NCBI GenBank assembly: GCA_020056305.1
Contig: JAGVIA010000035.1
Location: 1-44,038 of the forward strand
DNA: 44,038 nucleotides
From: an archaeon
GTDB lineage: Archaea > Micrarchaeota > Micrarchaeia > Anstonellales > Anstonellaceae
Reading direction: 5' to 3'
Below the pieces are notes generated by a model. It did not search any database. It was not told the DNA's origin and saw only the letters and a program-made list of their open reading frames with translations. The position numbers and the translations under genes were made by a program. Of this stretch, positions 7,878 to 29,182 are shown piece after piece (position 1 is the stretch's first letter; the number at the start of each line of letters is the position of its first letter).

Positions 7878-7962
7878 CTGTCCCACCTCTATTTTAGTGC
7901 CTTTTTCGCACCAGTCTGGTCGCGATTCGGATTAATGGGCTCGATATTTAAATATATTTCCT

Positions 7963-9029: not shown

Positions 9030-9080
9030 AGTTGTACATGTGCAGGACAACACATATTTAAGTATGCCATATTCCCCATT

Positions 9081-9090
9081 CCCATATGGG
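9081..9090. promoter_or_regulatory. Palindrome CCCATATGGG in the divergent TrmB-like/91-aa ORF intergenic region
   Basis: Perfect 10-bp palindrome with outer CCC/GGG extensions (9075-9096), between divergent starts 9029(-) and 9100(+). Confidence 0.5.
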
Positions 9091-9099
9091 GTGGGGTGC

Positions 9100-10587: not shown

Positions 10588-10768
10588 ACAGATCGCCAAG
10601 CGTTCCACTCACACGAGATTTAAATAGGTTCCCATCATGTGCCTGTTATAACGACGGAAAAAGAAATTCGAAAGCGCCGGCAAGCTGTTGTGGTGGACAA
10701 ATGCTACCATCGGCAAGGCACTTTAATTAAGCTTTAAATCAGCCCATCCCATACTACTAACGAGCTTT

Positions 10769-13660
10769 ATGGTTCCAAAAGCAGAAGCCAGTTTTACAGA
10801 GCGCATTCTCAAGGCATTCCGAAAGATAAACTCCGAGATAACTGTAGATTCCCTTGAGCATGATTTCAGCCCGCGCCTTGTTGAGCATTTTGTCAAGGAA
10901 GTGCTCGGCTACCAAGGGAACGAATACATTTTCGAGCGCGGGAGGACCGACATAACGCTTCTTGATGAGAGCAAGCGCCGCGTTGTAGTCATGGAAACGA
11001 AACGCCCGAAAGAAAGCCTTGATGCGGAAAAATGGCGGATGCAGGCAGGCAAGTATGCCGACTCATCCACGCTTTTTGTCGGGCTCACCAACGGCTACCG
11101 CTTCCTGCTATGGCAGGTGAAGAAAGGCGGCGAGCGTGAACTCAAGGCGGACATTGATTTCAAGGGGCTCATCGCCTCCAAGCGGGCAAGCGAGGACAAG
11201 CTTACCACAAAGGAAACCGAGCAGCTTCTATTTCTCAATAATCTCACAAAAGAGCAGGTCTGGAGCGTGGACAAATACTCAAAGTTTGATGAGTATTACG
11301 CAACCATAGATGTTTCCGATGAGGGCGGCTTCTCAAAGCTCATTGAGCAGCTCAATTACATCTCAAACGACCTTTTGCGCCAATACACCTACTCTGCCTT
11401 TGACGAGTATTACGCGGGTTATGCGCAGTACAAGCAGACAAAGGGGGAGCTTGACGAGATAAAAAAAGCAAACGGCAACAACAAAAAGCACGCTGCCGAT
11501 ATTGCAAGGTTCGAGCTCAAGACTGAAGGCAAATACCAGAAATACGCATCTTTCTGGGGCTACTATTACTGGAAGGCTGTTTCCAACAGGCCAGATGACA
11601 AGGAGGAGGAGAACAAGCGCGTTTTCTGCCAAGAGTCCATTTATCTCCTTCTCAACAGGCTGCTATTCATCCGGATTTGCGAGGACAGGGGGCTTGTTTC
11701 CAAGAAAATCTCCAACGGCGGGGCCGAGAGGCTGCGCGAGCAGCTCATGGAGCCTGTTCTGGGGGACACCGGCGTTTTCAAGCAGATAGTGCAGTTCTCC
11801 TATGGCGGCGCCAAGAACATTTACCACCATTTCTATGAGAAAAACAACCCGCTTGACTGGTATGAAAGCGGGGACGGGGAGCTTAGCTCTGTGCTCAACA
11901 AGGTGCTGTGGATTCTGAACCAGTTCAACTTCGCCGGAGTTGACAGGGACATCCTTGGGAAATTGTACGAGAAATTCCTGCCCAAAGATGAGCGGAAAAA
12001 GCTTGGGGAATTTTATACGCCCGATGAAGTGATAGACTACATACTCGATGCGGTTGAGTATGTGCCCTCCAAGGCGATTGAGGGCAAGGATTTGATAGAC
12101 CCGGCCTGCGGCTCCGGCGGCTTCCTTGTGCGTGCCGCGCGGCGGCTGATTGCCCGGCAGGCGGTGAAGTTCGGGAAAGCCACGCCCAAAGAGGCGCTGG
12201 ACAACAAGCGCTGGAGCGAAGTTTATTCTAGGCTCACGCCCAAGGAATGCGAAGAGATTGTGAATTCCGTTGCCATGCACATACACGGCTTTGACATAAA
12301 CCCGTTTGCCGTGGGAATTTCTGAAATGAACCTGCTTTTCCAGATAATTGATTTGTATTCAAAGGCTGCAAAGGCAAATAATTCTTTCAAGGTGCCGCGC
12401 TTCAAGGTCTATGAAACCGATTCGCTTGAAATGCCTACCACACAGTCCAACTTGACGCATTTCTACGGTGCGACCGGGAAGAGCCTTGCGAAGGACAAGG
12501 ATGCAAGTGACGAGTTGAAAAGGAAGAAATACGATTTTGTGGTGGGAAATCCGCCTTATGTGAGAACACACGAACAAGAATTAACCAAAAATAGAATACT
12601 AACCGACTATTCTGATGTTGCAGAAGGGCAGTTCGACCTTTTCATTCCGTTTGTTAAATTTGGGTGGGAGTTGCTTAAACCCGAGGGAAAAGAAAGCTAT
12701 ATCATATCCAACAAACTTCTTTCCAATGACTATGCAAAAAAACTAAGGAAATTTTTACTTGAAAAAACTACGATTGAACAAATAATTGATTCTTCAGAAG
12801 TTTTGTGGTTTGAGGCATCTGTTTATCCGATAATTTTTGTTGTTAGGAAGGCTGAAAAGAATGGAAATATTGTTCCGCTTGGGCATATAACCTCGGAAGC
12901 GGAGCTGATTTGCGATAAGATTCATCTTATAGAGCTGCCAGTCGGACGCATAAGCGCGCTCTACAATTCCATCATACCATCAGTACAGTCGAAAAAGGAA
13001 TTTGATTTGCTTGTAAGGCTATCTGGTTTTGAGAAACATTTCAAAGTTTTTAGACCTAAACCAACAAGTGTTTCAATGATAGGTGAATCTGAATTAGCGG
13101 GGAAACCAGAGTTCGCGCAGGAGCAACACGTCCAAGTTGTTTCTAATGAAGATGTAAGGTCGTTTCATATAACTCCCCAAAATTGGTATATAGATAAAAA
13201 ATTGAAAGATACACCCGAAACCCCGCATGTTCTGATGAAAAAATTATGTAAGGATTTAACTGCATCACCAAATCCAGAAAAATTTGCAGCAGTAAATACC
13301 ACATATGTGGTTCAATCAGACAATAACCTTCCAGCAGAGCTTATATCTGCTATGATAAATTCAAAAGTTCTAAACTTCTATGCTAAACGATTATTTTTCT
13401 CCACACATATGCGTGGTGGTTACATAGAGCTTCGAACCAAACAAATCGAAAACCTGCCGGTCACACTTTCTAAGACAATCGCGCAAAAAGAAATTTCAAA
13501 AAAGATAACTGATAAAGTGAAGGAAATCCTCAAACTCAAGAAGAAGGACAAGACTGCGGACATCACAAAGCTGGAGATAGAAATAGACGACCTCGTTTTT
13601 GAGCTTTATGGAATTACGCCAGAGGAGAGGAAAATCATAGAGAAGGCAGTTGAAGGATGA
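10769..13660 (+). CDS. Single-chain restriction-modification enzyme (N6-adenine MTase with N-terminal nuclease-like domain; type IIG/Eco57I-like)
   Basis: N-terminal RTDITLLDESKRRVVVMETKRPKE (D..ExK), DPACGSGGFL (motif I), VVGNPPYVRT (motif IV NPPY), C-terminal target-recognition-like region. Confidence 0.9.
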   Translation: MVPKAEASFTERILKAFRKINSEITVDSLEHDFSPRLVEHFVKEVLGYQGNEYIFERGRTDITLLDESKRRVVVMETKRPKESLDAEKWRMQAGKYADSSTLFVGLTNGYRFLLWQVKKGGERELKADIDFKGLIASKRASEDKLTTKETEQLLFLNNLTKEQVWSVDKYSKFDEYYATIDVSDEGGFSKLIEQLNYISNDLLRQYTYSAFDEYYAGYAQYKQTKGELDEIKKANGNNKKHAADIARFELKTEGKYQKYASFWGYYYWKAVSNRPDDKEEENKRVFCQESIYLLLNRLLFIRICEDRGLVSKKISNGGAERLREQLMEPVLGDTGVFKQIVQFSYGGAKNIYHHFYEKNNPLDWYESGDGELSSVLNKVLWILNQFNFAGVDRDILGKLYEKFLPKDERKKLGEFYTPDEVIDYILDAVEYVPSKAIEGKDLIDPACGSGGFLVRAARRLIARQAVKFGKATPKEALDNKRWSEVYSRLTPKECEEIVNSVAMHIHGFDINPFAVGISEMNLLFQIIDLYSKAAKANNSFKVPRFKVYETDSLEMPTTQSNLTHFYGATGKSLAKDKDASDELKRKKYDFVVGNPPYVRTHEQELTKNRILTDYSDVAEGQFDLFIPFVKFGWELLKPEGKESYIISNKLLSNDYAKKLRKFLLEKTTIEQIIDSSEVLWFEASVYPIIFVVRKAEKNGNIVPLGHITSEAELICDKIHLIELPVGRISALYNSIIPSVQSKKEFDLLVRLSGFEKHFKVFRPKPTSVSMIGESELAGKPEFAQEQHVQVVSNEDVRSFHITPQNWYIDKKLKDTPETPHVLMKKLCKDLTASPNPEKFAAVNTTYVVQSDNNLPAELISAMINSKVLNFYAKRLFFSTHMRGGYIELRTKQIENLPVTLSKTIAQKEISKKITDKVKEILKLKKKDKTADITKLEIEIDDLVFELYGITPEERKIIEKAVEG

Positions 13661-14189: not shown

Positions 14190-15938
14190 TCACTTCCCCT
14201 TTCTTTGCATCTCATACATCTCTATTATCTCATTAGTAGTGGTGGCATCTTCCGGCCCCTTGTCATCGCGCAAACTTACCATACGCGGAAAGCGCAATGC
14301 ATATCCTGTGTCCCCAACCCTGCCGCATGTGTGCATGGGCGAAAGGGTAATCTCATCAGATGCAACCGTTATCACATACTTTAATTCCGTCCAGAAGTCC
14401 GGCACCACATCTGACAGCAGTTTCTTCGGCTTCTCCTTAGTCTTTATCTTCTCTAGCATCTCCTCGAAATTCACCATTTCCTCTTCAGTGAATCCGCCCC
14501 CAATTCTCGCAATAGTCTCAAAATTCCCAGTGTCCTCATTTAGCACTGCCCCAAGCAAGCCACCAAATTTGAATTCCTCCCTCGCGCCCTTGCCAAGATA
14601 ATAGCCGCATATCACAACATCAACAGTGTCCACCATCGCGCCATAGGATTTCTTCAATTTTATCCACGCGAATTTCCTTGCGCCCGCGACATAGGGCGCA
14701 GCCATGTCCTTTGCAATGATGCCCTCAAGCCCCTCTGCAATGCATTTCTGGAAATATTTTTCAACCTGCGCGGCATTTGTTGCAATTATTTGGTCAGACG
14801 CGACAATGGTTTTGTTTTTTTTCACAAGCTGCTCAAGCGTTTCCCTTCTTTTCGCATATTCTATCTGCGTGTAATCCTTTCCGTCCAGATACAAAACATC
14901 AAATGCGAACAATCTCAGCGGGAACTCCTTCGACATTGCCTCCACGCCGTATTTGCGCTTGCGCTGTATCGTCTGCTGGAATGAGAAATACCTTTTTTCC
15001 TTGACAGAATATGCAAGCGCCTCGCCTTCCAAAATGAATTCCTTCGCATTGATTTCAAGCGCTGCTTGCACAATTTCAGGAAACATTTTTGTCATCCTCT
15101 CAAGCTTGCGCGAAAATATTTCCACCTGCTTCCCTGTTTTGTGCACCTGCATGCGAAGCCCGTCATATTTTGCCTCAACCGTCACTTCCTTCTGCTCACT
15201 ATTTTTTGCAATTTTCTCGTAAATTTCCTCAGCAGTAGGAAGCCTTTCCGCAAGCGCGGGGCGGATGGGTTTCAGCGGCGCGGGCTTGAATTTCTCCACA
15301 GCAACCTCGCCTCCTTCAAAAAACATCCTTGCAACATATCCCAAGTCCGAGCACAAATTATACGCGCGCTCGATTTTCACGCGCAGGGATTTGTCGCCTG
15401 CCTTATACGTTGAGAGCGCATCCAATATTGTCGGGTCGCCCACTCCCAGCCGCAGCTTCCCGAGCGTGAAGCGCACAATATATTTTGCCTCAAGCACACT
15501 TGCATTATTGAGCAGCTCAGCAACGGATTTTATCTTGCCTTCCTGCGAGCCATGCCCGCTCAATTTCGCAAGGCGCAAAAACGATTCGAACACTTTCGCA
15601 ACGGTCAGTTCGCTTGTGCACAGGCTCATTTGCGCCTTCTTCTGCAGCAATTTCTCGGCAACAAGCCCCAAATCCCCCATCCTCTTGTATTCCCGCTCAA
15701 CATTCGGGCGCGTCTGCCCCGATGACAATGCAATTGCCTCGATGACGAATTTCTCGCCCACGCCCAAGTCAATGCCCTCGTACGCGGGCGCAATGCTTCC
15801 CTGGCACAAATACACAATGCGTTCTGCCTCCCCTCTGTCCATTTTTGTAAATAGCGCGGCAAGGATGGCGGTCATCTCCAATCTGGATGCAGTGCCTTCC
15901 AATTTCTCAAAAACAGCCGCAAGTTCGGAGAATTGCAT
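14190..15938 (-). CDS. lig: ATP-dependent DNA ligase
   Basis: VEAKYDGLRMQVHK (motif I KYDGxR), ILEGEALAY, EGIIAKD, FAWIKLKKSY motifs. Confidence 0.97.
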   Translation of the reverse strand: MQFSELAAVFEKLEGTASRLEMTAILAALFTKMDRGEAERIVYLCQGSIAPAYEGIDLGVGEKFVIEAIALSSGQTRPNVEREYKRMGDLGLVAEKLLQKKAQMSLCTSELTVAKVFESFLRLAKLSGHGSQEGKIKSVAELLNNASVLEAKYIVRFTLGKLRLGVGDPTILDALSTYKAGDKSLRVKIERAYNLCSDLGYVARMFFEGGEVAVEKFKPAPLKPIRPALAERLPTAEEIYEKIAKNSEQKEVTVEAKYDGLRMQVHKTGKQVEIFSRKLERMTKMFPEIVQAALEINAKEFILEGEALAYSVKEKRYFSFQQTIQRKRKYGVEAMSKEFPLRLFAFDVLYLDGKDYTQIEYAKRRETLEQLVKKNKTIVASDQIIATNAAQVEKYFQKCIAEGLEGIIAKDMAAPYVAGARKFAWIKLKKSYGAMVDTVDVVICGYYLGKGAREEFKFGGLLGAVLNEDTGNFETIARIGGGFTEEEMVNFEEMLEKIKTKEKPKKLLSDVVPDFWTELKYVITVASDEITLSPMHTCGRVGDTGYALRFPRMVSLRDDKGPEDATTTNEIIEMYEMQRKGK

Positions 15939-16005: not shown

Positions 16006-18750
16006 ATGTCTAATTACGATAACGGGCAGCAGCGCGCCGCGGTTCCAAGCCTGCGCCAAATGCGCAGGCCGCGCTCCTCCGGGAGCGCGCCGCTTATTGG
16101 CGGTGCTGCTGCCTGTGTCAAAGGCCAGGGTGCGGTCGAGTTCGTCGCAATACTCGGCATGATGCTTCTCATCGTTCTCGTAGTGTTGACAATCTCCAAC
16201 CAGCGCTTAATCGACTTATCCACGCAGAAGATAATGGTCGAATCGCGCTCGTCAGTGAAAAACCTTGCGGACGCCGCAAACCACGTTTATTCCCAGGGAA
16301 TAGGCGCAAAAAAATACGTCTTCATCCGGCTTCCCGTCGATGCAAACCTCTCCAAATCCTTCATCGCAAACCGGACCATCATCCTAAACGTGCGCGGCAC
16401 GGACATTTCCGCGCTCACAGACGGCAACGTCACCGGCAACTTCCCAAGCAGCGCAGGCGGTTCCTGGCTCAAGGTGGAGTCAATGGGAAGCTACGTCCAG
16501 ATCGGAAACTACTACCTTGAGCTGGATTCGGGCTCGCTCTACGTGAACATGGCAAACACGACGAACAAGACCGTAACTATCCGGGCATTGAACTGGGGCA
16601 ACCGCTCAATAAACGTAACGCTTTACCCGACATGGACGGACTCGCCGGACGCCTCAAGGCGCGTCAACCTGACAGTCCCGACACTTACTGCTGAGATATT
16701 GGAGGCATCAAGCGAAACGTTCACCCTCCAGTTCAACTCCGGCAACCGCACCGGAGGCATTTACACTGGCCTGCTGACTTTTGTTGCCAATTTCACAGAC
16801 GGGGGCGCAGGCCCGTACGAAACTGCAGACGTGCCTGTCACGGTTGAAGTGAGCATCCAGCCAGTCTACCGAAACATTCGCGAGGACATAAACCAAAGCA
16901 CGCTTGTCATCGTCCTTCTCTCAAACGCCACAACGGTATCCATCGGTAAGAACCTTTCTTTGGGCGGCGGCCCGTTCAACAACCCTTACAACATAACCCT
17001 CTTTGTGTGCGCAAGGCCTGACAGCGACGTTTCCGACGTGCACATCTACTCCCTCAACCAAAGCGTTTCAATATTTGGCATATTCGGCCTAGAATACTAC
17101 ACTGGCACGATTACGCCAAGCCAGTGCAAATTCCGCAACATCAATCTCACCTCTAACGCAACCCCGGTAACTGGCATATTCAACGAAACTATAATCGCAA
17201 TACCTGTAAACGCCTCCACTCCTCTTGCTGCCAACAACGCAACATTGCTGATAGGCGCGGCAATTGACGCGACTGGTCCCGCAGTTCTTGCCGGCAACGT
17301 ATCGCTAAGCCCCGCCTACCCCCGCACTAGCGTGAACATAAGCGCGAACATAAGCGACACTGGAGGCCTCTCTGGGCAGGTCTGGATAAACACATGCATC
17401 CTCCAAAACGCCTCTGTGCGGAACTATTCGATGGGCGCCTCTGATGGCGCATACGACACCCAGCTGGAGGTAGCTTCCTACAATTTCACCTCTATTTCCG
17501 ATGGCAATGTGAGCCTGAACATAACCTGCAACGATAGCTTCAACAACTGGGGCACGAACTACACCCTGAACTTCACGGTGGACTCCATTCCGCCCCAGCT
17601 CCTTAGCACGAATTTCGGGGCTTATTGCGGCTCGTATGGCAACCCGTGCGGAACAGGAGTCTTTCCGAACGGCACGAGATTCTTCTATCTCTCAAATCCG
17701 GTATGGCTCAATGCCACTGTGAACGATTCTGCAACCGGCGGCGCGAACATCACGGCGTGCGATGTGTATGTCGACACCGATGTGACGCCACTATCCATGG
17801 TCGCGTCAGACGGCACATTCGATTCATCATTTGAGTATGCGAATGTTTCGCTCGGCTCGCTTGCAGCAAACTCCACGCACAACCTCACAGTCAACTGCAC
17901 GGACAGGCACGGCAACATTGCGACAAACTACACTCAGTTCGTCGTAAACACCTCTTGCCAGAACATCGACACCGCAGTCACCGTGACACTGCAGTCCGAT
18001 GTCCACGCATCCGGAGGCGGCACGTGCTTCAACATAACGGCAAGCGGCGCCAACCTCAACTGCAACAATTACGCCATATCCGGACTGTCCAATGCCGGAA
18101 CCTACGGAGTCTACGTCAACGCAAGCAATGTCGGCGTGGGAAACTGCACGGTCACCAGCTTTGACTCGGGCATCCTCTACAACCGGACGCTTTACGGCAG
18201 GATAGAAAATGTGACAACAAACAGCCACACAAACGCCGGCGTATACCTGCTCTCAACAAACCTTTCGAACATAAGTGGCATAAGCGCAAGCTCGAACGCA
18301 ATCGGCGCCTACCTTGTAAACGTGACCGGGGGGAACATTACCTCGGGCACGATGTATGAGAATGCGGCTGGCGCAACCGCCCTTCTCTTTTCGCAGACAA
18401 GCAGCGTCAAGGTAACGCGCGTCTACATGAACGCAACCGGCTTCCACATCCGCCTTGACTACTCATCGACGAACAACACATTCTTCTACAACAACATAAC
18501 CGGAAGCGGAGTATGGGTCAACAACACCGGAACTGCAAATGACAACTATTTCAACACGTCGCTTGGAAGCGGGGCAGGCGCGGGCAATTACTACTGGAAT
18601 GTTACGCTCTACGATGCGAACGATTCCATATCCAGCCCGGACGGCTTTGCGGACAAGGGCACGCAATACCCGTTCAACTGGACTTACTTAGGCTCGCTCT
18701 GGAACGTGTCAGGCAATGATTCCGGCCCTGCCACAAGCAGGCAGTCATGA
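16006..18750 (+). CDS. Giant surface protein: class III/pilin-like N-terminus plus right-handed beta-helix-like ectodomain
   Basis: GQGAVEFVAILGMMLLIVLVVLTISNQR pilin-like segment after a ~45-aa leader; very high density of N-x-S/T sequons; repeats such as NNTFFYNNITGSGVWVNNTG and CFNITASGANLNCNNYAISG. Confidence 0.8.
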   Translation: MSNYDNGQQRAAVPSLRQMRRPRSSGSAPLIGGAAACVKGQGAVEFVAILGMMLLIVLVVLTISNQRLIDLSTQKIMVESRSSVKNLADAANHVYSQGIGAKKYVFIRLPVDANLSKSFIANRTIILNVRGTDISALTDGNVTGNFPSSAGGSWLKVESMGSYVQIGNYYLELDSGSLYVNMANTTNKTVTIRALNWGNRSINVTLYPTWTDSPDASRRVNLTVPTLTAEILEASSETFTLQFNSGNRTGGIYTGLLTFVANFTDGGAGPYETADVPVTVEVSIQPVYRNIREDINQSTLVIVLLSNATTVSIGKNLSLGGGPFNNPYNITLFVCARPDSDVSDVHIYSLNQSVSIFGIFGLEYYTGTITPSQCKFRNINLTSNATPVTGIFNETIIAIPVNASTPLAANNATLLIGAAIDATGPAVLAGNVSLSPAYPRTSVNISANISDTGGLSGQVWINTCILQNASVRNYSMGASDGAYDTQLEVASYNFTSISDGNVSLNITCNDSFNNWGTNYTLNFTVDSIPPQLLSTNFGAYCGSYGNPCGTGVFPNGTRFFYLSNPVWLNATVNDSATGGANITACDVYVDTDVTPLSMVASDGTFDSSFEYANVSLGSLAANSTHNLTVNCTDRHGNIATNYTQFVVNTSCQNIDTAVTVTLQSDVHASGGGTCFNITASGANLNCNNYAISGLSNAGTYGVYVNASNVGVGNCTVTSFDSGILYNRTLYGRIENVTTNSHTNAGVYLLSTNLSNISGISASSNAIGAYLVNVTGGNITSGTMYENAAGATALLFSQTSSVKVTRVYMNATGFHIRLDYSSTNNTFFYNNITGSGVWVNNTGTANDNYFNTSLGSGAGAGNYYWNVTLYDANDSISSPDGFADKGTQYPFNWTYLGSLWNVSGNDSGPATSRQS
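16049..16089. repeat. Two back-to-back hairpins in the leader-coding region
   Basis: GCCTGCGC-CAAAT-GCGCAGGC (16049-16069) followed directly by CGCGCTCC-TCCG-GGAGCGCG (16070-16089). Confidence 0.8.
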
Positions 18751-18805
18751 GCGCCGGTGCAAAAACAATATATACGCAAAGGGCGAAATTGGCAAAGGCA
18801 CCACC

Positions 18806-21800
18806 ATGGATTTTGAGCAGAACAATGCAAATGAGCGCAAAGCTCATAGCACAGCGGCTTGCCATGGGCAAGGTGCGACACGCTCGAACTATCGTTCGAC
18901 CTATCGCGCCCGTCTTGGACAGGGCGCGACCGAATTCATCGCGATAATGGCAATGGGCCTGCTCATCGTCCTTGTCATAATAACCGTCGCAAACCAGCGG
19001 CTTATCGACCTCACAACCCAGAAGGTGATGACTGAGGCCAGAAGCGGCGTGAAGGACCTATCAGACACTGCAAACGAGGTCTACAAGCAGGGATATGGCG
19101 CGCGCAAAAACGTATTCATAAAGATACCGACAGACACCGACTTCGACCGTTCCTACATCGGGACGCCGCCTGGCGCAACTGCGACTGCCTCGCGCACAAT
19201 AAACCTGAACGTGAAGGACACTGACATAACCGCGCTGACAGACGGCCCGGTGTCAGGCGCATTCCCGCGCTCAAGCGGAGGCCACTGGCTCAAAGTCGAG
19301 TCAAAGGGCAGCTTTGTCAGCATAGGCAGCTATTTCCTCCAGCTCGATTCCGGCTCGCTCCACGTCCAAATGCATAACAATTCGCACCAGAACGCCACGG
19401 TGCGCGCATACAACGTGGGCAATGAAACTATCACCGTCACCACCCAGCTGACATGGACCAATGTCTCCGCCGGCATGAACATGTCAATGGTTTGGTCCAA
19501 TGCAACAATCCCTGCTGGCACAAACTCAAACGCAAGCTTCAACTTCACATTTGACTCGGGCTATCTTGCAGGCATTTATTCCGGCGATGTTGTCTTTTTT
19601 GCCAACACGACATCAGGGGGCACTGCCATAAACGAGTCGCTGACGCTCCCAATAGCCGCCGAGGTCACCATAAGCCCATTTTATCCTGCATACAACAATG
19701 CGACGATAAACCTGAGCACCGTCCTCCTCTACATGTTCACGAACCTGACGAATTCAACAATCACCATCGGCAAAAATGTTACCGGCGGCGGGCCTGCGAA
19801 CAACCGGGAGATAACCTTGTTCATCTGCGCCCAGCCTGGCACAAACATAACAAACGTGAGCGTCTACTCCCTAAACTATTCTCAAAGCAGCTTTTTTGTC
19901 GGGAGCCAGCCCTGGTACGCCGGCCCCATAAACCCGAACGCCTGCATTTCCCGTGTTGTCAACTTCACCTCCTCGCTTAGCGCCCTGACCGGCTCCTCAG
20001 CAGAGACAATTGCCGCAACCGCGACCAACGGCAGCACATACGCTTACTATTATACTGCATATATCGGCGTAAATGTGAGTATCGATGCGACAGGCCCCAA
20101 TGTCACGAACGCCTCGCACTCGCCAGCCTACCCTCAAATTAGCACGCTTGTCACAATCCACGCAAACATCACTGACAGCGGCGGGGCGCTGGGGCAGTCC
20201 TGGATAGAAAACTGCACTGCTTGGGTGAATGGGTCTGTCTATTACATGGCGCCAAATGACGGACTCTTCAACACTACATCGGAGGGCGCAAACACGAGCA
20301 TGACCCCTGCAAACGACGGAACCTTCCTTGTAAACGTCTCCTGCAACGACACGATGGGGAACTATGGCGCCAACCGCTCGATCAACTTCACCGTGGATTC
20401 GGTGGCGCCCATCATACTCGCCTTTGGCGCAAGCTGCGGGGCAGTAGGCGCCCCCTGCAACAGCGGCACCTATTCCAACGGCACCCAGTACTTCACATTC
20501 ACAGCAAGCCAGGCGCTCTTTTTCAATATGAGCGTAAACGATACTGGCAGGGGCGGCTCCAGCATCTCTGATTGCAACTTCAGCATTGACGGCGGCACCG
20601 TCTACTCCGTCAATGCAACCGACGGCATGTTTGACAGCGCCTTTGAGTATGGCAATGCCACCATAGGCACGCTGTCAGCAGGCGACCATGTGCTCACGGC
20701 AAACTGCTCGGATGTTTACGGGAATGGCGCGTCCAACACCACCAACTTCATCGTGGGGCTTGCGGCATGCCAAAACCTGGGCACGGCAAGCAAGACCTAT
20801 GCCCTTTCCCAAAACGTCAACTCGAGCGGCACATGCTTCAATGTCACTGCAAGTGGCGTCACCCTAAACTGCGCAGGCTATTCCATAACCGGCACGAACG
20901 CCACGAACACCTCCGCAGTCTTCTCCAACATGAACCTGACGGCGCTGCAAAACTGCAATGTCAGCAACTACTCATACGGCATCCTGTTCAACCAAAGCAA
21001 CAACAGTGTGATTTCCGGAGGCGCATTCAACTCCTCATCAAGCTCTGCAATCTGGCTGGCTGGGGCTACTAACGCCAGCATAAGCGGCGTAACGGCAACC
21101 GGTACCGATGCGGCATACAGCCTATATGCCACGGGCACGGCAACAACCAGCGGGCTTAGCATTTCCTCTTCCACCTTCAATGCGACCGGCAGCATGTCTG
21201 GCGCACGGTTTGATTACATCACAGGGGCAACGTTTTCCGGCATCACGGCGCAAGCCAATGGGGGCGTAGGCTTCTACTGCTGGAACTGCAACAACAGCAT
21301 CTTCACAGGAGGCACTTGCGTCTCCAATGCGAGCACAGGCTTCTACCTCACCGGCTCGAACAATAGCGTCCAAGGCGGCACAATGATTTCCACCACCGGC
21401 TCAGGCATATCCATGTCAGGCGCAAGCAACAACACCCTGAACGGCATGAACGCGTCAAGCGGAAGCATAGGCATCGGCATATTTGGCACATCAAACTACA
21501 ACACCATTGCGAACTCATCCATCACCTGCGGGATGGGTGGCTCAACCCCCTATGCAATTTTGCTAACAGGCGCCATCTTCAACAATTTCACAAACAACAA
21601 CATCACGGCAAACTGCCAGCGGGGGATAAGCATTGCCTCAACCGTAAACGACAGCATATTCACCTACAACCGCATAACCGCAAACAACTCGGCAGGGCAG
21701 GGGGTGATAGTCATTGGGCCGGTGAATGCGTTCAGAAACACATTTCTCTACAACAACCTCACGCAGATAAACGACACCGCAACCGCAAACGGCGCGTATG

Positions 21801-22198
21801 TGATAAATATGTTAGGCACCAACCTACCCAACCAGACCTTCGCATATAACCTCCTCAACGCAACAAACGGCACGTTCCTCCGCAACCAAGGGACTGGCAG
21901 GCTCCTGAACTTCACTTACAACACAATGGTGGGCACGGCAACCATGTGGATAAACAACACGGATGCAAGCGCGAATTTCAGCATCCTTGTGGGCGGCAAA
22001 TGGCAGGGGAACTCTTATCCCAACACAACGCTCTATGACTGCGTGGACAGCGACGCCATTCCCGACGGATACTGCGACAGCGGCACTGCATACCCGTTCA
22101 ACGCAACCACCTTAGGCGCGCTCTGGGGCGGTGGTGTGACGGCGACCGGAATAGGGAACGACTCGGGCCCTGCGACAACAAGGACAGCGTGGCCGTGA
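18806..22198 (+). CDS. Giant surface protein, paralog of the preceding gene
   Basis: ATG 18806; GQGATEFIAIMAMGLLIVLVIITVANQRLIDLTTQKV shared with the upstream protein; beta-helix-like repeats and dense sequons. Confidence 0.82.
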   Translation: MDFEQNNANERKAHSTAACHGQGATRSNYRSTYRARLGQGATEFIAIMAMGLLIVLVIITVANQRLIDLTTQKVMTEARSGVKDLSDTANEVYKQGYGARKNVFIKIPTDTDFDRSYIGTPPGATATASRTINLNVKDTDITALTDGPVSGAFPRSSGGHWLKVESKGSFVSIGSYFLQLDSGSLHVQMHNNSHQNATVRAYNVGNETITVTTQLTWTNVSAGMNMSMVWSNATIPAGTNSNASFNFTFDSGYLAGIYSGDVVFFANTTSGGTAINESLTLPIAAEVTISPFYPAYNNATINLSTVLLYMFTNLTNSTITIGKNVTGGGPANNREITLFICAQPGTNITNVSVYSLNYSQSSFFVGSQPWYAGPINPNACISRVVNFTSSLSALTGSSAETIAATATNGSTYAYYYTAYIGVNVSIDATGPNVTNASHSPAYPQISTLVTIHANITDSGGALGQSWIENCTAWVNGSVYYMAPNDGLFNTTSEGANTSMTPANDGTFLVNVSCNDTMGNYGANRSINFTVDSVAPIILAFGASCGAVGAPCNSGTYSNGTQYFTFTASQALFFNMSVNDTGRGGSSISDCNFSIDGGTVYSVNATDGMFDSAFEYGNATIGTLSAGDHVLTANCSDVYGNGASNTTNFIVGLAACQNLGTASKTYALSQNVNSSGTCFNVTASGVTLNCAGYSITGTNATNTSAVFSNMNLTALQNCNVSNYSYGILFNQSNNSVISGGAFNSSSSSAIWLAGATNASISGVTATGTDAAYSLYATGTATTSGLSISSSTFNATGSMSGARFDYITGATFSGITAQANGGVGFYCWNCNNSIFTGGTCVSNASTGFYLTGSNNSVQGGTMISTTGSGISMSGASNNTLNGMNASSGSIGIGIFGTSNYNTIANSSITCGMGGSTPYAILLTGAIFNNFTNNNITANCQRGISIASTVNDSIFTYNRITANNSAGQGVIVIGPVNAFRNTFLYNNLTQINDTATANGAYVINMLGTNLPNQTFAYNLLNATNGTFLRNQGTGRLLNFTYNTMVGTATMWINNTDASANFSILVGGKWQGNSYPNTTLYDCVDSDAIPDGYCDSGTAYPFNATTLGALWGGGVTATGIGNDSGPATTRTAWP
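18884..18929. repeat. Two adjacent hairpins in the leader-coding region of the second giant pilin-like gene
   Basis: TCGAAC-TATC-GTTCGA (18884-18899) and TCGCGCCC-GTCTTGGACA-GGGCGCGA (18904-18929). Confidence 0.8.
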
Positions 22199-22203
22199 TT
22201 CCA

Positions 22204-22602
22204 ATGCTAAAAGGCCAATCAAGCGTCGAATACATCATCATCATGTCAGGCCTGCTAATCATCCTTCTCGCGGTCACAATCGTGCGCGTGGGGATGGAGC
22301 AGCAGGCAAACAGGCTCCGGCTCCAGCTTGACGCGGAGCGCGTTGCAAACAAGCTTGCCGGGGCAATGGATGCGGCGCATTCCGCCGGCAACGGGACCGT
22401 GTTCGCCTTTTACAACAAGGCAGACCCGTCGTTTTCCATAAACATAACCGGAAGGTTCCTTCGCGTAATTTACAACCAAAGCTACGCAAGCGCATCCTTA
22501 GTCACGAACGCGACAGTGCAGGCCGATTCCAATCTTGTAAACCAGTACATATACGTAAACAATTCAAACGGTGTCATATATGTCGGAAATTACACGTCGT
22601 AG
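22204..22602 (+). CDS. Small pilin-like protein with class III signal peptide
   Basis: MLKGQSSVEYIIIMSGLLIILLAVTIVR: QxSxEY motif followed by a hydrophobic helix. Confidence 0.85.
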   Translation: MLKGQSSVEYIIIMSGLLIILLAVTIVRVGMEQQANRLRLQLDAERVANKLAGAMDAAHSAGNGTVFAFYNKADPSFSINITGRFLRVIYNQSYASASLVTNATVQADSNLVNQYIYVNNSNGVIYVGNYTS

Positions 22603-23248
22603 CATGCGGCAATTGCAGCATAAACGCAGCCATGCGCCACAACGGATCAGCAATGCAAGCGAGTGCCGGGGCATAACGCATCGTCCGCATCAGGATCGCA
22701 TTGCACGCCGCGGCCAGACGGTGACTCTCGACTTCATCTTCTCAGTTGGCATCTTCATGGCAATCCTCCTCATACTATTCCCGCTCTGGGCGACTGTGCG
22801 CACGCAGCTTTTCACATCAACTTATGACCGGGAGCTTGCGCGCATAGTGCTTGGCGTTTCCTCAAGCCTTGTGGAGGGCCCCGGCTCGCCCACGAACTGG
22901 CAATTCAGCAGCTTTGACAATGCAACGGCATACGGGCTGGCGTTTGGAAGAAACAGGCTCATGTACGGAAAGATGCTCAACTTCACCAGCATGAACGCCA
23001 CGAATTACACGCGCATCAAGCAGTATCTTGGCGCAGGGAGGTACGAGATGAACGTGAAGCTGCTATACCTCAACGACACCGTGCTAAACGATTCTGGTTC
23101 AAGCCCGCCCCTGCCGCTTTTCTTCGGCCTCACAACCCCCTCAAATGAAACAGTGCGGTATACCTCGCAGGCGATAGAGCGCCTCGTCCTTGTGAACCAG
23201 TCGCTCTACAAGCTGCGGGTGGAAGTTTGGAGGAACATCACAACATGA
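22571..23248 (+). CDS. Pilin/secretion-associated membrane protein with long basic leader
   Basis: RRGQTVTLDFIFSVGIFMAILLILFPLW after a ~45-aa basic leader; overlaps the previous gene's end and the next gene's start. Confidence 0.7.
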   Translation: MSYMSEITRRSMRQLQHKRSHAPQRISNASECRGITHRPHQDRIARRGQTVTLDFIFSVGIFMAILLILFPLWATVRTQLFTSTYDRELARIVLGVSSSLVEGPGSPTNWQFSSFDNATAYGLAFGRNRLMYGKMLNFTSMNATNYTRIKQYLGAGRYEMNVKLLYLNDTVLNDSGSSPPLPLFFGLTTPSNETVRYTSQAIERLVLVNQSLYKLRVEVWRNITT

Positions 23249-23715
23249 AACTATCAAGCAGTCGCGCAAGGGGCATAGCCCTCACGGTAGAGGTAATCAT
23301 AGCTTTGCTCCTCGCATTCATGACCATCATAATAACGTTCAGCCTCCTCAATAATGCCAGGCCTTCAGCAATAGAATTCGCCCATATGCGATCAATTTCC
23401 TTTGACGTCTTAACGGTTCTTGAAAAAACAGGCTCGCTCACAAGCCCGTTTGACCACCTGGGAATCTCAAATGCCACCAACACAAGCTCCATCCGCGAAG
23501 TGCTTCGCCAGACGCCATATTTCTTCTGCGCCAAGCTGGATGCGTACCAGAACTCAACCTATATCAACTACACGGTCGTCAAGGCCAATTGCGATTACAG
23601 CTCCGAGGACTTCCAAGTGGCATGGCGGACATTCCAGTACCCCGTGAATGCAACGGATTACCGGTACTTCACTGCCAGGCTCACATCCTGGTACAAGAGG
23701 GTCGGCACGACATGA
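23245..23715 (+). CDS. Pilin-like membrane protein
   Basis: MKLSSSRARGIALTVEVIIALLLAFMTIIITFSLLNN; short basic N-terminus plus one TM helix. Confidence 0.7.
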   Translation: MKLSSSRARGIALTVEVIIALLLAFMTIIITFSLLNNARPSAIEFAHMRSISFDVLTVLEKTGSLTSPFDHLGISNATNTSSIREVLRQTPYFFCAKLDAYQNSTYINYTVVKANCDYSSEDFQVAWRTFQYPVNATDYRYFTARLTSWYKRVGTT

Positions 23716-24659
23716 ACTCAAAAAAAGGCATAATCTATTCGATTGCGGTCCTTGCATTCTCCCTAGTGATAGTAGGGCTGGCGCAGTTTGCCATCGAGCA
23801 GCACGACGCATCCAAGTCGGATTTTGTCGAAATCGAGAATATCGTGGCTGCCGGCTATGCATTTGATGACGTTTCCGACGACCTGCGCTATCTCACGGGC
23901 GCGGACATTGCACTTGAGCGCAATTCCACAACGCTGATAATACACTACTATGACAAGACTCCGTTCCTCCCGGTTGGCAGTCCCCTCGTGAACGAAACCA
24001 CATACGCAACGTACCTCTCAGGGGATTACTTTACCCTCAGCCGCAGCAACCTCTCCCTTAACGCATCGTCGCTCAATGGCACATCCGCGCCTGTCATCTA
24101 CCTTGCATACGACCTTGGGGGCGTAAACGACACCAACACTTCGATATACCACCAGATAGGGAGCGAAGTTGACATCGCGCAGATAAACATTTCAAACCGC
24201 TTCAAGCCCTATCGCATGGATTTTGTGATACGCTGCAACCTATCGGGTGTGATCCTCAATTCCACATCCAATGACACGACGGTCGGCCCGTCCCTGCTCG
24301 CATACGTGGATTACCAAGATCCAATCTTCAAAATCAACCAGCTATTCAACTTCAACCTGACAAACGGCACGGGCACTTCGGACACAAACAAGAGCATCAC
24401 CATTAATTTCCTTCCATACGGGAACAACTACTTCCAGATCGCGTTCAACGGCAGCGAATTTTCCCACACCCCGGAGCAGGGAGAGCCGTACAAGGTCAAG
24501 TTTGTCTCGCTGCGCAACTCCAACTGCGCATGGAACGCCTCTGTTTTCGTGAACACGACTGACTACCCTGCCGAATTTTTTGCATACTACAACGCATGGG
24601 CGAATTTCACGCACGGCAACCTCTCCAAAATCGGAATGGTGCCCATAGGCAGGGCGTAA
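23712..24659 (+). CDS. Pilus-locus membrane protein with extracellular domain
   Basis: MNSKKGIIYSIAVLAFSLVIVGLAQFAIEQ; N-terminal TM, sequon-rich ectodomain; 4-bp overlap with upstream gene. Confidence 0.7.
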   Translation: MNSKKGIIYSIAVLAFSLVIVGLAQFAIEQHDASKSDFVEIENIVAAGYAFDDVSDDLRYLTGADIALERNSTTLIIHYYDKTPFLPVGSPLVNETTYATYLSGDYFTLSRSNLSLNASSLNGTSAPVIYLAYDLGGVNDTNTSIYHQIGSEVDIAQINISNRFKPYRMDFVIRCNLSGVILNSTSNDTTVGPSLLAYVDYQDPIFKINQLFNFNLTNGTGTSDTNKSITINFLPYGNNYFQIAFNGSEFSHTPEQGEPYKVKFVSLRNSNCAWNASVFVNTTDYPAEFFAYYNAWANFTHGNLSKIGMVPIGRA

Positions 24660-24801
24660 GAACAGCAGAAGCAGGAGCCAACAAAGTGCGTTTCTCCATC
24701 CTGCGCATCTGGTGGCATTCGCATTTTTTCCATGTCAGCGAGCAGTCCCTCCAATTCCCAAAAAACGCATGTTTAAATAATGTAAATCGGTTGTAGCAAC
24801 G

Positions 24802-26529
24802 ATGCTAGTAACCAAGATTGACCAGCTTGTCGACCTTGCCCGTGCGCAAAAGAGCCCGACACTGGAGTTTGCCGCAACAAAGCTCGACTTGCCGATAAAG
24901 GCGGTCGAGGCAATCGCAAGCATGCTTGAGCGGGGCAATGTTGTCGAAATCCGCTACCCTGTCAACATCCTAGAAAAGCCATACCTGGTCTTCCGCGGGC
25001 TGCCCCCGGAGCCTGCGCCAAAGCAGGAGGGCGAGCGCGGCAAGGTCATCCTCACCTACTCCTTCAAGGCAGACCGCGTTCCCGCAACAGTGCAGGTGTC
25101 AGACACGGGCCGCGAAAAATATTACACCATTTCCCTAGTCGAGCTCTCGCAGCCCACGCGCATTTTCCTTGACGAGATAAAAGAGGAGCTTCTCCGCTCG
25201 GTCCCCGCAGAGCAAAGCGACGTATCCGACGTGGAGAAGCTTGCGAAAATAAAGTCCGACTTCTCAAGAAAGATAGAAAAATACCTCGAAACCTACCACC
25301 TCGGGCCAGAAACAAGCGAGCTTCTCACGGGCATGCTGCTCCACATAATGTTCGGGCTTGGCGAGCTTGACATGCTCACGCAGGACGACTCGCTTGAGGA
25401 AATCGCAGTCATCAACAGCAAGCAGCCTATCGGCATCTACCATAGAAAATTCGGCTGGCTCAAAACTAACATGTACATGCCGGACGAGGATGCGATATTC
25501 AACTATTCCTCGCAAATAGCCCGCCGCGTCGGAAGGCAAATCGCGGTCCTCACGCCCATACTGGATGCACGGCTGGAAACAGGCGACCGCGTGAACGCAA
25601 CCCTTGCGCCAATATCCGCTCATGGGAACACCATCACAATCAGAAAGTTCGCAAAAGACCCCTGGACAGTCATCAACCTAATCACAGACCAGTCGCACAC
25701 CATGACTACTGAGATGGCAGGCATGCTCTGGCAGGCAATCCACTATGAGATGAATGTGCTGGTTGCAGGCGGCACAGCATCCGGAAAAACATCCGCCCTA
25801 AACGCGCTTCTCGCATTCATCCCGCCAAACCAGCGCATCCTGACAATAGAGGATACAAGAGAGCTTGTGCTGCCGTCCTTCCAGTGGAACTGGATACCGA
25901 TGCTCACGCGCAACTCGAATGCGGAAGGGCTTGGGGAAGTTAGCATGCTGGATTTGATGGTATCCGCATTGCGCATGAGGCCTGACCGCATCGTGCTGGG
26001 AGAAATGAGGCGCCAGAAGGAGGCAGAGGTGCTATTTGAGGCAATGCACACTGGCCACTCGGTCTACTCCACGCTTCACGCCGATACCTCAAATCAGGTT
26101 ATTCGGCGCCTGACAAACCCGCCCATTGACATGCCGCCCTCGGAAATCGAGGCTCTGCACCTTGTTATCGTGCAATACCGTGACAGGCGGCGCAACCTGA
26201 GGCGCACCCTTGAGATATGCGAGATGACCTCGGGCGCCGGGAACGACGAGCTGTCAGCGAACATCATCTATCGCTGGCGGCCGCGCACCGACACTTTTGA
26301 GAAGGTGGGCGAGCCCACCAAATATTACAAGGAGCTCAACCTGCACACCGGCATGACGAAGGACGAGATAGTCTCGGACATAAAAAACCGCGCAATGATA
26401 CTTTCCTGGATGCTCAAAAACAAGATGTATTCGCTTGAGGCAGTCGGCAAGGTCATGTCAATCTATTATGCCGACCCGAAAAGCGTGATTGAGCTTGCAA
26501 GGGGCAATCTTGGGATAAGAAAGCCATAA
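24802..26529 (+). CDS. Type II/IV secretion system ATPase (GspE/VirB11/archaeal pilus family)
   Basis: LVAGGTASGKTSALNALLAF Walker A; LTIEDTRELVLP; HTGHSVYSTLHAD His box. Confidence 0.95.
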   Translation: MLVTKIDQLVDLARAQKSPTLEFAATKLDLPIKAVEAIASMLERGNVVEIRYPVNILEKPYLVFRGLPPEPAPKQEGERGKVILTYSFKADRVPATVQVSDTGREKYYTISLVELSQPTRIFLDEIKEELLRSVPAEQSDVSDVEKLAKIKSDFSRKIEKYLETYHLGPETSELLTGMLLHIMFGLGELDMLTQDDSLEEIAVINSKQPIGIYHRKFGWLKTNMYMPDEDAIFNYSSQIARRVGRQIAVLTPILDARLETGDRVNATLAPISAHGNTITIRKFAKDPWTVINLITDQSHTMTTEMAGMLWQAIHYEMNVLVAGGTASGKTSALNALLAFIPPNQRILTIEDTRELVLPSFQWNWIPMLTRNSNAEGLGEVSMLDLMVSALRMRPDRIVLGEMRRQKEAEVLFEAMHTGHSVYSTLHADTSNQVIRRLTNPPIDMPPSEIEALHLVIVQYRDRRRNLRRTLEICEMTSGAGNDELSANIIYRWRPRTDTFEKVGEPTKYYKELNLHTGMTKDEIVSDIKNRAMILSWMLKNKMYSLEAVGKVMSIYYADPKSVIELARGNLGIRKP

Positions 26530-26544
26530 GTTCATGGTGCTAAC

Positions 26545-27432
26545 ATGAGAATCCCGCTGATGCTAATCTCATTGGAAGCCGCGCCAGCCCTTGGCAACCG
26601 CTTCCGCGGGCTTGGCATCCGCCTCTCCTCATTCTACCCGGGCCTCAAATACGACCTGCGCAACGCCGCCCTTGACATCGGAGTGGAGCAATTCTGCGTT
26701 GCCGCATTTTTCTCGGCATTGATATGGGCCACGATATTCGGCGTGTTCCTCTTAGTTGTCGGGCAGATACGCCCTGAGCTTCCCGCGCCCATAAAGATAC
26801 TTGGGCCCGGCCTTGCATTTTTTGTGACCCTCATATTCTTCATCGTCCTCCACCTGTCATACCCCAAGGTGATTGCGAAAAACATCGCGGACAAAATCGA
26901 CCGCGACCTCACTTTTGCCGCCCGCGACATGCTGATTCAGATAAGCTCAGGCATCCCCCTCTACACAGTGCTTCGCAACATCTCCGAATCGGATTATGGG
27001 CAGGTGAGCAAGGAGTTCACAAAGGTGATAAACGACATACGCGGAGGCCAGTCGCTGGTGACTGCGCTTGAGAACATGGCGCTTCGCAGCCAATCGCAGT
27101 ATCTCAAGAAGACCGCCTGGCAGCTCATCACCGCGGTGCGCGCAGGCGCAAACCTTTCAAGCTCCCTAAAGGGCATCGTGAAGCTGCTTGTGGATTACCA
27201 GTTCTCGCTCAACAAGAGCTACAACGCCGAGCTCAACTTCATCGTGCTAATCTACCTTCTCGTCTCCGCAGTCGTGCCGACAGTGGGAGTCACGGTGCTT
27301 GTGATTTTCTCAGTGTTCGGCATACTGGGCATCACCCCCGAGCTTTTTGCCGCGATAGTCACAGGCTCGTTCATTGTGCAGCTCGGAATGATCGGCTATG
27401 TCTTTGTGAAGCGGCCGAACATGTATGTGTAA
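26545..27432 (+). CDS. Type II secretion system F/TadC-like membrane protein
   Basis: T2SSF-type region ISSGIPLYTVLRNISES...ALENMALRSQSQYLKKTAWQLITAVRAGANLSSSLKGI with flanking TMs. Confidence 0.88.
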   Translation: MRIPLMLISLEAAPALGNRFRGLGIRLSSFYPGLKYDLRNAALDIGVEQFCVAAFFSALIWATIFGVFLLVVGQIRPELPAPIKILGPGLAFFVTLIFFIVLHLSYPKVIAKNIADKIDRDLTFAARDMLIQISSGIPLYTVLRNISESDYGQVSKEFTKVINDIRGGQSLVTALENMALRSQSQYLKKTAWQLITAVRAGANLSSSLKGIVKLLVDYQFSLNKSYNAELNFIVLIYLLVSAVVPTVGVTVLVIFSVFGILGITPELFAAIVTGSFIVQLGMIGYVFVKRPNMYV

Positions 27433-27492
27433 AACCAAAAATGAAAGCGGAAATGGCATGCCAATTTATCGGCGTGCGCAAGCGTGTGAAAA

Positions 27493-28536
27493 ATGGCAAA
27501 GAAGTATATCATATACAGAAAATTCGCATTCACGCTCCCTCCCAGGCAGGTGACGGCAGTCTCAAAGATGCTAAATTATGCCGGCATCCCAACCTCCCCG
27601 GAGATTTGGGTGGGCTCAAAGCTCGTGCTCGCGCTTCTTGCTGGAATAATCGGCGCGCTCATCCCATTCACGATATTCCGCTTCGCAGGCGTGTTCGGCC
27701 TCTCATTCACCGATGCAACCACCTCTGATGTCATCCTGATGCTTGGCATGTCTTTTGCCACCGGCGCGTTGCTGTTCGCAACAGTTGCCATCCTCTTCTA
27801 CCTGCACCTCTACTACATCATACACGACCGCACGCACCGCGTCGAGGCAATCCTGCCTGACTTCCTTCTAATGGTCGCGGCGAATCTGCGCGCAGGCCTC
27901 ACGCCATTTTCCGCGCTCCAGGTTGCCGCCAGGCCCGAGTTCGGCCCGCTTGAGGCAGAGGTGCGCATCATCTCATCGCGCTCGATGGGCACGGAATCAT
28001 TCACTGATGCGCTGCGCAAGCTCACGGACCGCGTTGACAGCAACGTGCTTCGCCGCACCATCAACTTCTTTGAAAACGGCCTGAAAAGCGGAGGAAAGCT
28101 CGCGCAGCTGCTTGAAACTTCCGCAGACGAGATCCGCGAGATGGACGAGCTCAAGCGCGAGATGATGCTAAACACCAAGACATATGCCATTTTCCTTATC
28201 TTCATCCTGATTTTCGGCCTTCCGCTCCTTCTTGCAATATCGACTGAGTTCCTTGGCACTTTCACAAAGATCCAGAGCCAGCTCAGCACGGATGACCTAA
28301 AGGGCGTAAGCGCAATTTCCGCGCCCAAGATCTCAATTGACGTGGGCTTCATCAACCAGATGGCAGGCGTCATCATAATCGGCACATCCATCCTCATCAG
28401 CATACTGGTGGGCGTGATTTCCGAGGGCAAAATACTGTACGGGCTCAAATACGCAGTGCCCCTCTCCATAGCATCGGGCACAATGTTCATGATTTGCAAG
28501 ATGATGATCGGCGGATTCATTGGGCAGCTTATTTGA
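27493..28536 (+). CDS. Second type II secretion system F/TadC-like membrane protein
   Basis: LMVAANLRAGLTPFSALQVAARPEFGPLEAEV... FFENGLKSGGKLAQLLETSADEIREMDELKREM; TM segments on both sides. Confidence 0.9.
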   Translation: MAKKYIIYRKFAFTLPPRQVTAVSKMLNYAGIPTSPEIWVGSKLVLALLAGIIGALIPFTIFRFAGVFGLSFTDATTSDVILMLGMSFATGALLFATVAILFYLHLYYIIHDRTHRVEAILPDFLLMVAANLRAGLTPFSALQVAARPEFGPLEAEVRIISSRSMGTESFTDALRKLTDRVDSNVLRRTINFFENGLKSGGKLAQLLETSADEIREMDELKREMMLNTKTYAIFLIFILIFGLPLLLAISTEFLGTFTKIQSQLSTDDLKGVSAISAPKISIDVGFINQMAGVIIIGTSILISILVGVISEGKILYGLKYAVPLSIASGTMFMICKMMIGGFIGQLI

Positions 28537-28558
28537 AATCACCCAGCGCGTGAATGCC

Positions 28559-29182
28559 ATGAAGCAATCCCTTGTTTGGTACGCATCCTACGGCTCGAAT
28601 CTTCTAAAGAGCAGATTCATGTGCTATATTGAAGGCGGAAAGCCAGAAGGCAGCGATAAAGTCGAAACAGGCTGCGAAGATAAAACTCCTCCGAGCGAAG
28701 ACAAGCAAATATTTATCCCCCATCAGATGTATTTCGCCAAAAACTCGCCACGTTGGCAGAATGGTGGCATTGCATTCATAGATGTCGAAAAAGGCATTAA
28801 GCGCACAACGTTGGGGCGAATGTATCTGATAACGGAGAGTCAGTTCAGGGATGTTGTCAAGCAGGAAAATGATTGTGTAGCATTTTCTATCGATTTGGAA
28901 AAGGTAAAAGAAAAAGGCAGTTTTGTTTTTCACAATTCATGGTACGGGCGAATCATATATCTAGGCGAGGACGGCGGCTATCCTGTCTTCTCATTTACTG
29001 CTCCATGGTCCATGGGCGAAGTCGAAACCACAAAACCCTTGCCAAGTTATTTGAAAATCATAATTCGCGGGCTAAAGGAAGCGTATCTGGATAAAAAAGA
29101 CAGCGAGCTGCTTGATTATCTGGCAAGCAAGCCAGGCATAACTGAAAATTACCGAAAAGAGCAATTACGCACGCTTGTCTAG
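28559..29182 (+). CDS. Hypothetical protein with YASYGSNL motif (gamma-glutamylcyclotransferase-like fold candidate)
   Basis: LVWYASYGSNLLKSRFMCYIEGGKPEGSDK.. FIPHQMYFAKNSPRWQNGGIAFID. Confidence 0.6.
   Translation: MKQSLVWYASYGSNLLKSRFMCYIEGGKPEGSDKVETGCEDKTPPSEDKQIFIPHQMYFAKNSPRWQNGGIAFIDVEKGIKRTTLGRMYLITESQFRDVVKQENDCVAFSIDLEKVKEKGSFVFHNSWYGRIIYLGEDGGYPVFSFTAPWSMGEVETTKPLPSYLKIIIRGLKEAYLDKKDSELLDYLASKPGITENYRKEQLRTLV

Follow-up and report, generated by a model that had tools for sequence, protein, structure and literature searches.

The window analysed here is a 44,038-nucleotide stretch of DNA that makes up the whole of contig JAGVIA010000035.1 (contig C40 of genome G000, GenBank assembly GCA_020056305.1; 1.38 Mb, 90% complete) from a micrarchaeotal archaeon of the family Anstonellaceae. 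It carries one type IV pilus operon of nine co-directed genes on the forward strand (16.1-28.5 kb), with mostly overlapping or short joins, arranged in the order BHP1, BHP2, P3, P4, P5, P6, ATPase, TadC1, and TadC2. We propose that this operon probably encodes an ATPase-built type IV filament in which two modular pilins, BHP1 and BHP2, would display adhesin arms that bear glycans, probably at the filament tip. An earlier reading made from the DNA letters alone (the sequence-only reading) had described positions 16006-28536 as a type IV pilus-like locus dominated by two giant pilin-anchored β-helix proteins; every gene is present where that reading placed it, and operon conservation, fold prediction, and domain content support pilin-anchored large adhesins. 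All of the evidence is sequence-based, the gene products being known here from their genes and from predicted models, and the loci with L numbers below are metagenome-derived contigs, several of which are truncated by contig ends.

The pilin module and arms of BHP1 and BHP2

The BHP1 open reading frame spans 16006-18750 (+) and its putative leader runs up to about 16122 (VKG|Q). From the class III motif (KGQGAVEF, i.e., VKG|QGAVEF) to the C terminus (16120-18747) it encodes 876 amino acids (aa), arranged as a pilin module (16120-16869) followed by Ig-like domains, a β-helix, and a C-terminal cap. The BHP2 open reading frame (18806-22198, +) has the motif GQGATEF (RLG|QGATEF) and encodes 1,093 aa from that motif (18917-22195), again with a pilin module, Ig-like domains, and a β-helix at residues ~604-930. 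The proposal that the two are tandem paralogs with class III pilin-like starts agrees with these motifs and with an identity of 52% in the pilin module and 42% across the following ~460 residues. Neither gene has a start codon directly before the motif, and with the start codons uncertain the leaders are put at roughly 20-45 residues. A glycine junction precedes the hydrophobic segment in all six surface proteins of the operon (BHP1, BHP2, and P3-P6).

The pilin-module profile matched BHP1 with an E value of 3.2e-82. When 27-30 homologues were aligned, Q3 and E7 of the class III motif proved invariant, about ten other columns were invariant or nearly so, and a conserved signature, VYxQGxGAKK, lay ~56 residues past the motif. 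AlphaFold (AF2) modelled the BHP1 module with a mean confidence score (pLDDT) of 92.5 as a single helix (residues 2-59), a β domain, and an Ig/ASH-like domain. The BHP2 model from the motif onward (pLDDT 72.5), a prediction that the sequence-only reading had recommended, contains a helix (2-58), a β domain, an Ig-like stack, and the β-helix (604-930). Thus both features of a modular pilin were found, a long α1 helix with a β domain and extra modules, here the Ig-like stack and the β-helix. The β-helix-like nature of the ectodomains was confirmed by Beta_helix (PF13229) matches above the 25.9-bit cut-off in BHP2 (32.2 bits, E 1e-7; NosD, E 1.8e-5) and, by genome search, in BHP1 (30.1 bits). No C-terminal membrane segment was found in BHP1 or BHP2. 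A fold search of the Protein Data Bank (PDB) with full-length BHP2 returned tandem-Ig architectures only, with nothing informative on function, and the single marginal match in a PDB sequence search of BHP2 (E 0.0038) was judged to be due to chance.

Both arms are dense in sequons, as had been noticed earlier. BHP1 contains 60 against 20±4 in shuffled sequences, with 24 occurrences of the reversed motif, and BHP2 contains 73 against 28±4, with 27 occurrences of the reversed motif. P4 (10 versus 2) and P6 (19 versus 4.8) are enriched as well, and the cytoplasmic ATPase has no excess (2 versus 2.8). The enrichment, 2.5- to 5-fold over shuffles, is thus confined to surface subunits, and the shuffles together with the reversed motif rule out a composition effect.

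Small pilins, motor, and platform proteins

The small class III pilin bearing the QSSVEY motif, the three further pilus proteins with an N-terminal transmembrane (TM) segment, and the two TadC-like proteins named in the sequence-only reading are all present. P3 (132 aa, 22204-22602, +; LKG|QSSVEY) is likely the shaft (major) subunit; it scores 18.5 bits against PF04021 (Class_IIIsignal), below the cut-off of 23.7, and orthologues with 31-50% identity occupy the same position in relatives. P4 (22571-23248, +; RRG|QTVTLDF), whose class III motif was recognised by eye and whose match to PF23958/DUF7287 is below cut-off, is recovered in relatives more widely than any other small subunit of the operon. 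Orthologues of P5 (156 aa, 23245-23715, +; ARG|IALTVEV) hold the same position in relatives. Orthologues of P6 (315 aa, 23712-24659, +; KKG|IIYSIAV) were also found in relatives, and its counterpart in genome G001 extends into a long ectodomain.

The assembly ATPase (24802-26529, +; Walker A GGTASGKT at residue 323) matches T2SSE with an E value of 1.7e-33 (116 bits, cut-off 24.9), was matched in 59/59 genomes searched, and has its nearest relatives labelled Candidatus Micrarchaeota. It had been called GspE-type; the T2SSE ATPase is there, but it is FlaI/TadA-like and not GspE proper. Both platform proteins, TadC1 (26545-27432, +; E 4.3e-16) and TadC2 (27493-28536, +; E 5.4e-15), exceed the T2SSF cut-off. 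Immediately 3' of TadC2 lies a gene for a 220-aa protein without a Pfam family (28520-29182, +). A prepilin peptidase gene is absent from the window, as had been reported, but the search elsewhere in the genome advised at that time located one Peptidase_A24 gene (G000:C104:17845-18147; 39.7 bits, cut-off 26.5) with both aspartate motifs (YYDL and GGAD). The following parts of an archaeal type IV pilus are encoded: an ATPase of the GspE/FlaI/TadA kind, TadC/FlaJ platforms, class III pilins, and a prepilin peptidase in the genome.

Two related machines were considered and rejected. For an archaellum, the best NCBIfam model for the ATPase is indeed archaellum FlaI, but the score of 281 bits is below the cut-off of 550, and no operon protein matches the FlaF/G/H families. 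For a Tad (T4c) pilus, the TadA-family ATPase model scores 177 bits versus a cut-off of 373, and no Flp or TadE/TadF/TadG match in Pfam or NCBIfam was found among the pilin-like proteins.

The genome has three further T2SSE matches, on contigs C34, C37, and C72. The match on C37 is accompanied by one FlaJ-like protein; that on C72 is weak, in a 533-aa frame that starts with a PIN-like stretch, and is probably not a pilus ATPase. On C34 (L130, 7394-14114) a second secretion ATPase occurs with two TadC-like genes, and a 1,027-aa protein without a Pfam family is encoded between them. A second small-pilin-like cluster without an ATPase is found on C65 (L175, 6910-13492), beside a 642-aa protein with two Kazal-type protease-inhibitor domains.

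Operon conservation and head-gene tails in relatives

Synteny in related archaea was another check proposed in the sequence-only reading. The order [590-835 aa class III pilin]-P3-P4-P5-P6-ATPase-TadC-TadC recurs, with small variations, in Micrarchaeota and Diapherotrites (L013, L015, L019, L020, L022, L023, L026, L027, L029-L032, and L045), and partial versions of the operon are found in Altiarchaeota, Woesearchaeota, and other DPANN archaea. The head-gene pilin is 590-835 aa in most of the Micrarchaeota and Diapherotrites loci examined. A large first pilin is the rule for this operon type, with the window BHPs at the upper end, and the generalisation that ordinary archaeal pilins are small fails for this head gene.

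The tails of the homologues vary. VWA tails were detected by Pfam in L031 and L032, and L022, L029, and L030 likewise carry the DxSxS motif; a PKD tail occurs in L020, RTX-like GGxGxD repeats in L045, and DUF2341 in a giant protein of genome G013; further tails are unassigned. LamG domains occur in relatives of the window, either inside BHP-type pilins or in P6-position proteins; a LamG search of the window genome gave no match. These tails (VWA, LamG, β-helix, RTX-like, and DUF2341) are known adhesive folds. Strong pilin-module matches were found in 54 of 245 genomes of the phylum, and outside genomes G005, G008, and the window genome no module-bearing open frame among those 245 genomes is longer than 912 aa. 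In genus g3 the pilus operons have no strong BHP genes. Near these operons (L122, 10362-14891; L125, 9263-12484; L126, 5279-9139) are proteins of 1,074-1,510 aa with 7-8% sequons and both N- and C-terminal TM segments, which are probable S-layer proteins.

Size variation at one syntenic locus

BHP genes adjoin a DNA ligase gene in nine loci, eight from the family of the window and one from the same order, and the ligases give 54-66% in tblastn across the nine. In the window this ATP-dependent DNA ligase (14190-15938, -; PF01068, E 1.8e-51) is outside the pilus system and serves as the synteny anchor next to BHP1. The unusual feature of this locus is its size plasticity. In genus g2 (G001, G007, G009, and G015) the BHP pair is only ~250 residues each, LamG-type proteins or tails being found in, or next to, the P6 position instead; the window pair is ~900/1,100 aa; and in G005, the closest relative (ATPase 68% identical to that of the window), BHP1 is 4,874 aa from the motif. 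BHP2 of G005 is cut off by the end of contig C1 after at least 3,505 aa. Contig C4 opens inside a frame of at least 6,622 aa, and P3-P6, the ATPase, and the TadC genes come immediately after it. Since both contig ends fall at the position that BHP2 has in the window, the two pieces are likely to be a single gene of 10,127 residues or more, although no sequence overlap joins the ends. Similar genes in G008, of the same genus as G005, are interrupted by contig ends. A 1,865-aa frame of G001 (L118) was dropped as a size claim because it contains a long run of masked bases.

The scanned part of G005 BHP1 contains 13 β-helix stretches and two LamG domains; the first part of BHP2 contains 22 β-helix stretches, and the second part 24 more with five LamG domains. 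Towards the C terminus of G005 BHP1 (L172) there are also NHL repeats that resemble the teneurin NHL domain. Many separate stretches along the G005 arms match the Ig/β-helix module of the window proteins, so that BHP1 and BHP2 of the window look like one-module versions. An assembly artefact was rejected: the giant frames are free of N stretches (C1 region) and repeat no 60-mer and no more than two 40-mers, their modules are only ~26-35% identical to each other, and their GC content at third codon positions (GC3) resembles that of the operon's ATPase. The lack of long DNA repeats together with the shared GC3 argues against misassembly. Tandem repeats were likewise dismissed as the cause of the size, as Tandem Repeats Finder detected none in the window BHP genes or in the L172 part of G005 BHP1. 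In the module tree, the window genome clusters with G005/G008 with good support (100/97), apart from the short g2 pilins, which fall in another group. Window BHP1 and BHP2 pair together (99/97), which indicates that each lineage gained its tandem copies independently or homogenised them.

For comparison, the largest protein reported from cultivated archaea is 9,409 aa (PMC10266531). A bolder proposal, on which we consider the evidence evenly balanced, is that the two tandem pilins have become the largest pilus subunits known in this lineage, with G005 BHP1 at 4,874 aa and BHP2 at 10,127 residues or more (>30 kb) if C1 and C4 hold one gene; that the arms grow by repeating the Ig/β-helix module present once in each window protein; and that one locus thereby samples arm lengths that differ more than tenfold, tuning which cells can be reached.

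Other genes of the window

An Eco57I-type restriction-methylase gene (10769-13660, +; 963 aa, with a TaqI_C-like specificity domain) lies between ftsZ and the DNA ligase gene. It is partly within a 41% GC stretch, its surroundings being 47-55%, and it was probably acquired recently. Two ftsZ genes are near each other (6804-7886, -, and 9529-10608, -) with a TrmB-like regulator in between (8289-9122). A viral origin was rejected, a PHROG search having given no match.

Proposed function and alternative explanations

In the mechanism that we favour, the cell-wide prepilin peptidase would trim the class III leaders, and the FlaI/TadA-like ATPase and the two TadC platforms would polymerise the pilins through packing of their long N-terminal helices, with P3 as the likely shaft subunit and P4-P6 as likely minor or priming subunits. 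The helix and β domain of the BHPs would permit entry into the filament, and the glycosylated Ig/β-helix arm would face outward as the adhesive part, binding a partner or host cell surface or an extracellular polysaccharide. A position at or near the tip is suggested because the bulk of the arm would clash inside the shaft, a steric argument that we take over by analogy from PMC8179133. Arms of different kinds (β-helix, LamG, VWA, and RTX-like) appear to be swappable between loci and could be lengthened by added modules, which would allow fast change of reach and binding range. Host or partner attachment, a use that the sequence-only reading had raised, is plausible, and arm growth in the closest relative suggests a fast-evolving grappling tool for other cells or surfaces. 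The recurrent operon order, the invariant Q3 and E7, the AF2 fold, the adhesive tails of homologues, the sequons, the peptidase, and the lack of a C-terminal anchor all support an adhesin-bearing filament.

Several results weigh against it. The top 50 Foldseek matches of the pilin module include ASH/PapD-like Ig domains but lack any type IV pilin, and in a PDB sequence-profile search the sole type IV pilin was non-significant (8qqj PilA5, E 0.68); because these searches gave Ig-type matches and no significant pilin, the BHPs are assigned as pilins on the basis of their motif, their helix, and their operon. The final 160 residues of the BHP2 model are of low confidence and unreliable, and two large pilins in tandem make a single tip position less obvious. 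Although 21/39 genomes in the search of relatives have the oligosaccharyltransferase STT3, none was found in this 90% complete assembly, which is likely explained by assembly incompleteness or divergence.

That the operon opens with a tandem pair of BHP genes, and that the ~250-aa BHPs of genus g2 are of a size that fits shaft subunits, could also mean that BHP1 and BHP2 build the shaft itself, giving a filament densely coated with glycosylated arms, i.e., a sheathed or decorated appendage. We consider this unlikely, as only long linkers would keep arms that range from 600 to several thousand residues from clashing in a helical shaft, and P3 is better sized for a shaft subunit. Moreover, the decorated filament known from archaea, the hamus, consists of an S-layer-like protein that has no relation to pilins (PMC4460559). 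It seems very improbable that the pilin-like helix is merely a membrane anchor and that the BHPs are S-layer-like coat proteins. High sequon density and Ig/β-helix folds are typical of archaeal surface-layer proteins too, but the class III Q and E are invariant, the BHPs are fixed in the pilus operon, and the S-layer-like proteins beside the g3 operons differ in their two terminal TM segments and 7-8% sequons. The hallmarks of an S-layer protein are a Sec signal, a C-terminal anchor, and no association with a pilus; BHP1 and BHP2 have a class III N-terminus and no C-terminal TM segment and are encoded in a pilus operon, so that the match to plain S-layer proteins named earlier as a refutation did not materialise. 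Nothing in the locus speaks positively for the piston-like export also raised in the sequence-only reading. Type IV pili do share machinery with type II secretion and Com pili, and DNA import has been proposed for DPANN pili (PMC9563170), but a pseudopilus that pushes proteins out or pulls DNA in is scarcely credible here: no effector or DNA-uptake genes were recognised in the operon, and the variable parts are adhesive folds.

An adhesin-bearing filament of this kind would bear on how host-dependent DPANN archaea grip their partner cells and on how far a type IV pilin can lengthen and still be secreted and assembled. One locus offers a natural arm series from almost nothing to several thousand residues, to which the wider operon family adds several adhesive folds, and these variants are a ready series for asking whether arm type and length set the partner range.

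Comparison with known systems

The clade 1 type IV pili (T4P) of methanogens and Thermococci, such as the Epd system (Makarova 2016, PMC4858521), likewise have an ATPase, two TadC proteins, at least five class III subunits, and large adhesin-like proteins, and share DUF2341 with the G013 giant. The large adhesins are separate there, whereas here the adhesive arm is fused to the pilin, and the window locus is without an EppA or FleN/MinD gene. The main text of that census mentions neither DPANN nor Micrarchaeum. Uncharacterised DPANN pilins were noted earlier (PMC6393860), and in Micrarchaeon Mia14 a link between LamG proteins and T4P loci has been described (Golyshina 2017, PMC5498576). In that related organism the LamG surface proteins adjoin T4P genes, whereas in the relatives of the window LamG is part of BHP-type pilins or P6-position proteins.

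For DPANN archaea, the passages of Hamm 2019 (PMC6642349) cited here report pilus-like genes with adhesion-domain pilins ("archaellin"/pilins with Ig and PKD domains in Nanohaloarchaeota) and pilus-like structures in Woesearchaeota and Diapherotrites; those passages do not cover β-helix arms, a comparison across the operon, or the size range. The giant SPEARE and nanohaloarchaeal surface proteins are also very large modular adhesins of host-dependent DPANN archaea (PMC6642349, PMC10266531), but most of them are anchored C-terminally in the membrane with a cytoplasmic domain, whereas the BHPs are N-terminally pilin-anchored and belong to a pilus operon. SPEARE membership was rejected, since the BHPs have no C-terminal hydrophobic segment and no VirB4 or restriction-like Pfam domain. 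In the literature searched, which left preprints and most subscription papers outside, we found no pilin with a β-helix arm, no arms at both the BHP and P6 positions, and no such length range.

A close likeness is to the modular type IV pilins, known from PilB and PilC of Streptococcus sanguinis and >1,200 bacterial proteins, a precedent in which adhesion has been shown (Raynaud 2021, PMC8179133). In both cases a class III N-terminal pilin module carries a grafted domain that is not pilus-specific, and VWA and LamG-type lectin tails occur in both. The BHPs differ in that they are archaeal, occur as two tandem copies, and have sequon-rich Ig and β-helix arms; the longest modular pilin cited in PMC8179133 has 860 residues, against 4,874 and at least 6,622 in the G005 relative. 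The simplest reading of the locus is a type IV filament with exchangeable adhesive arms, which would be the archaeal counterpart of the bacterial modular pilins.

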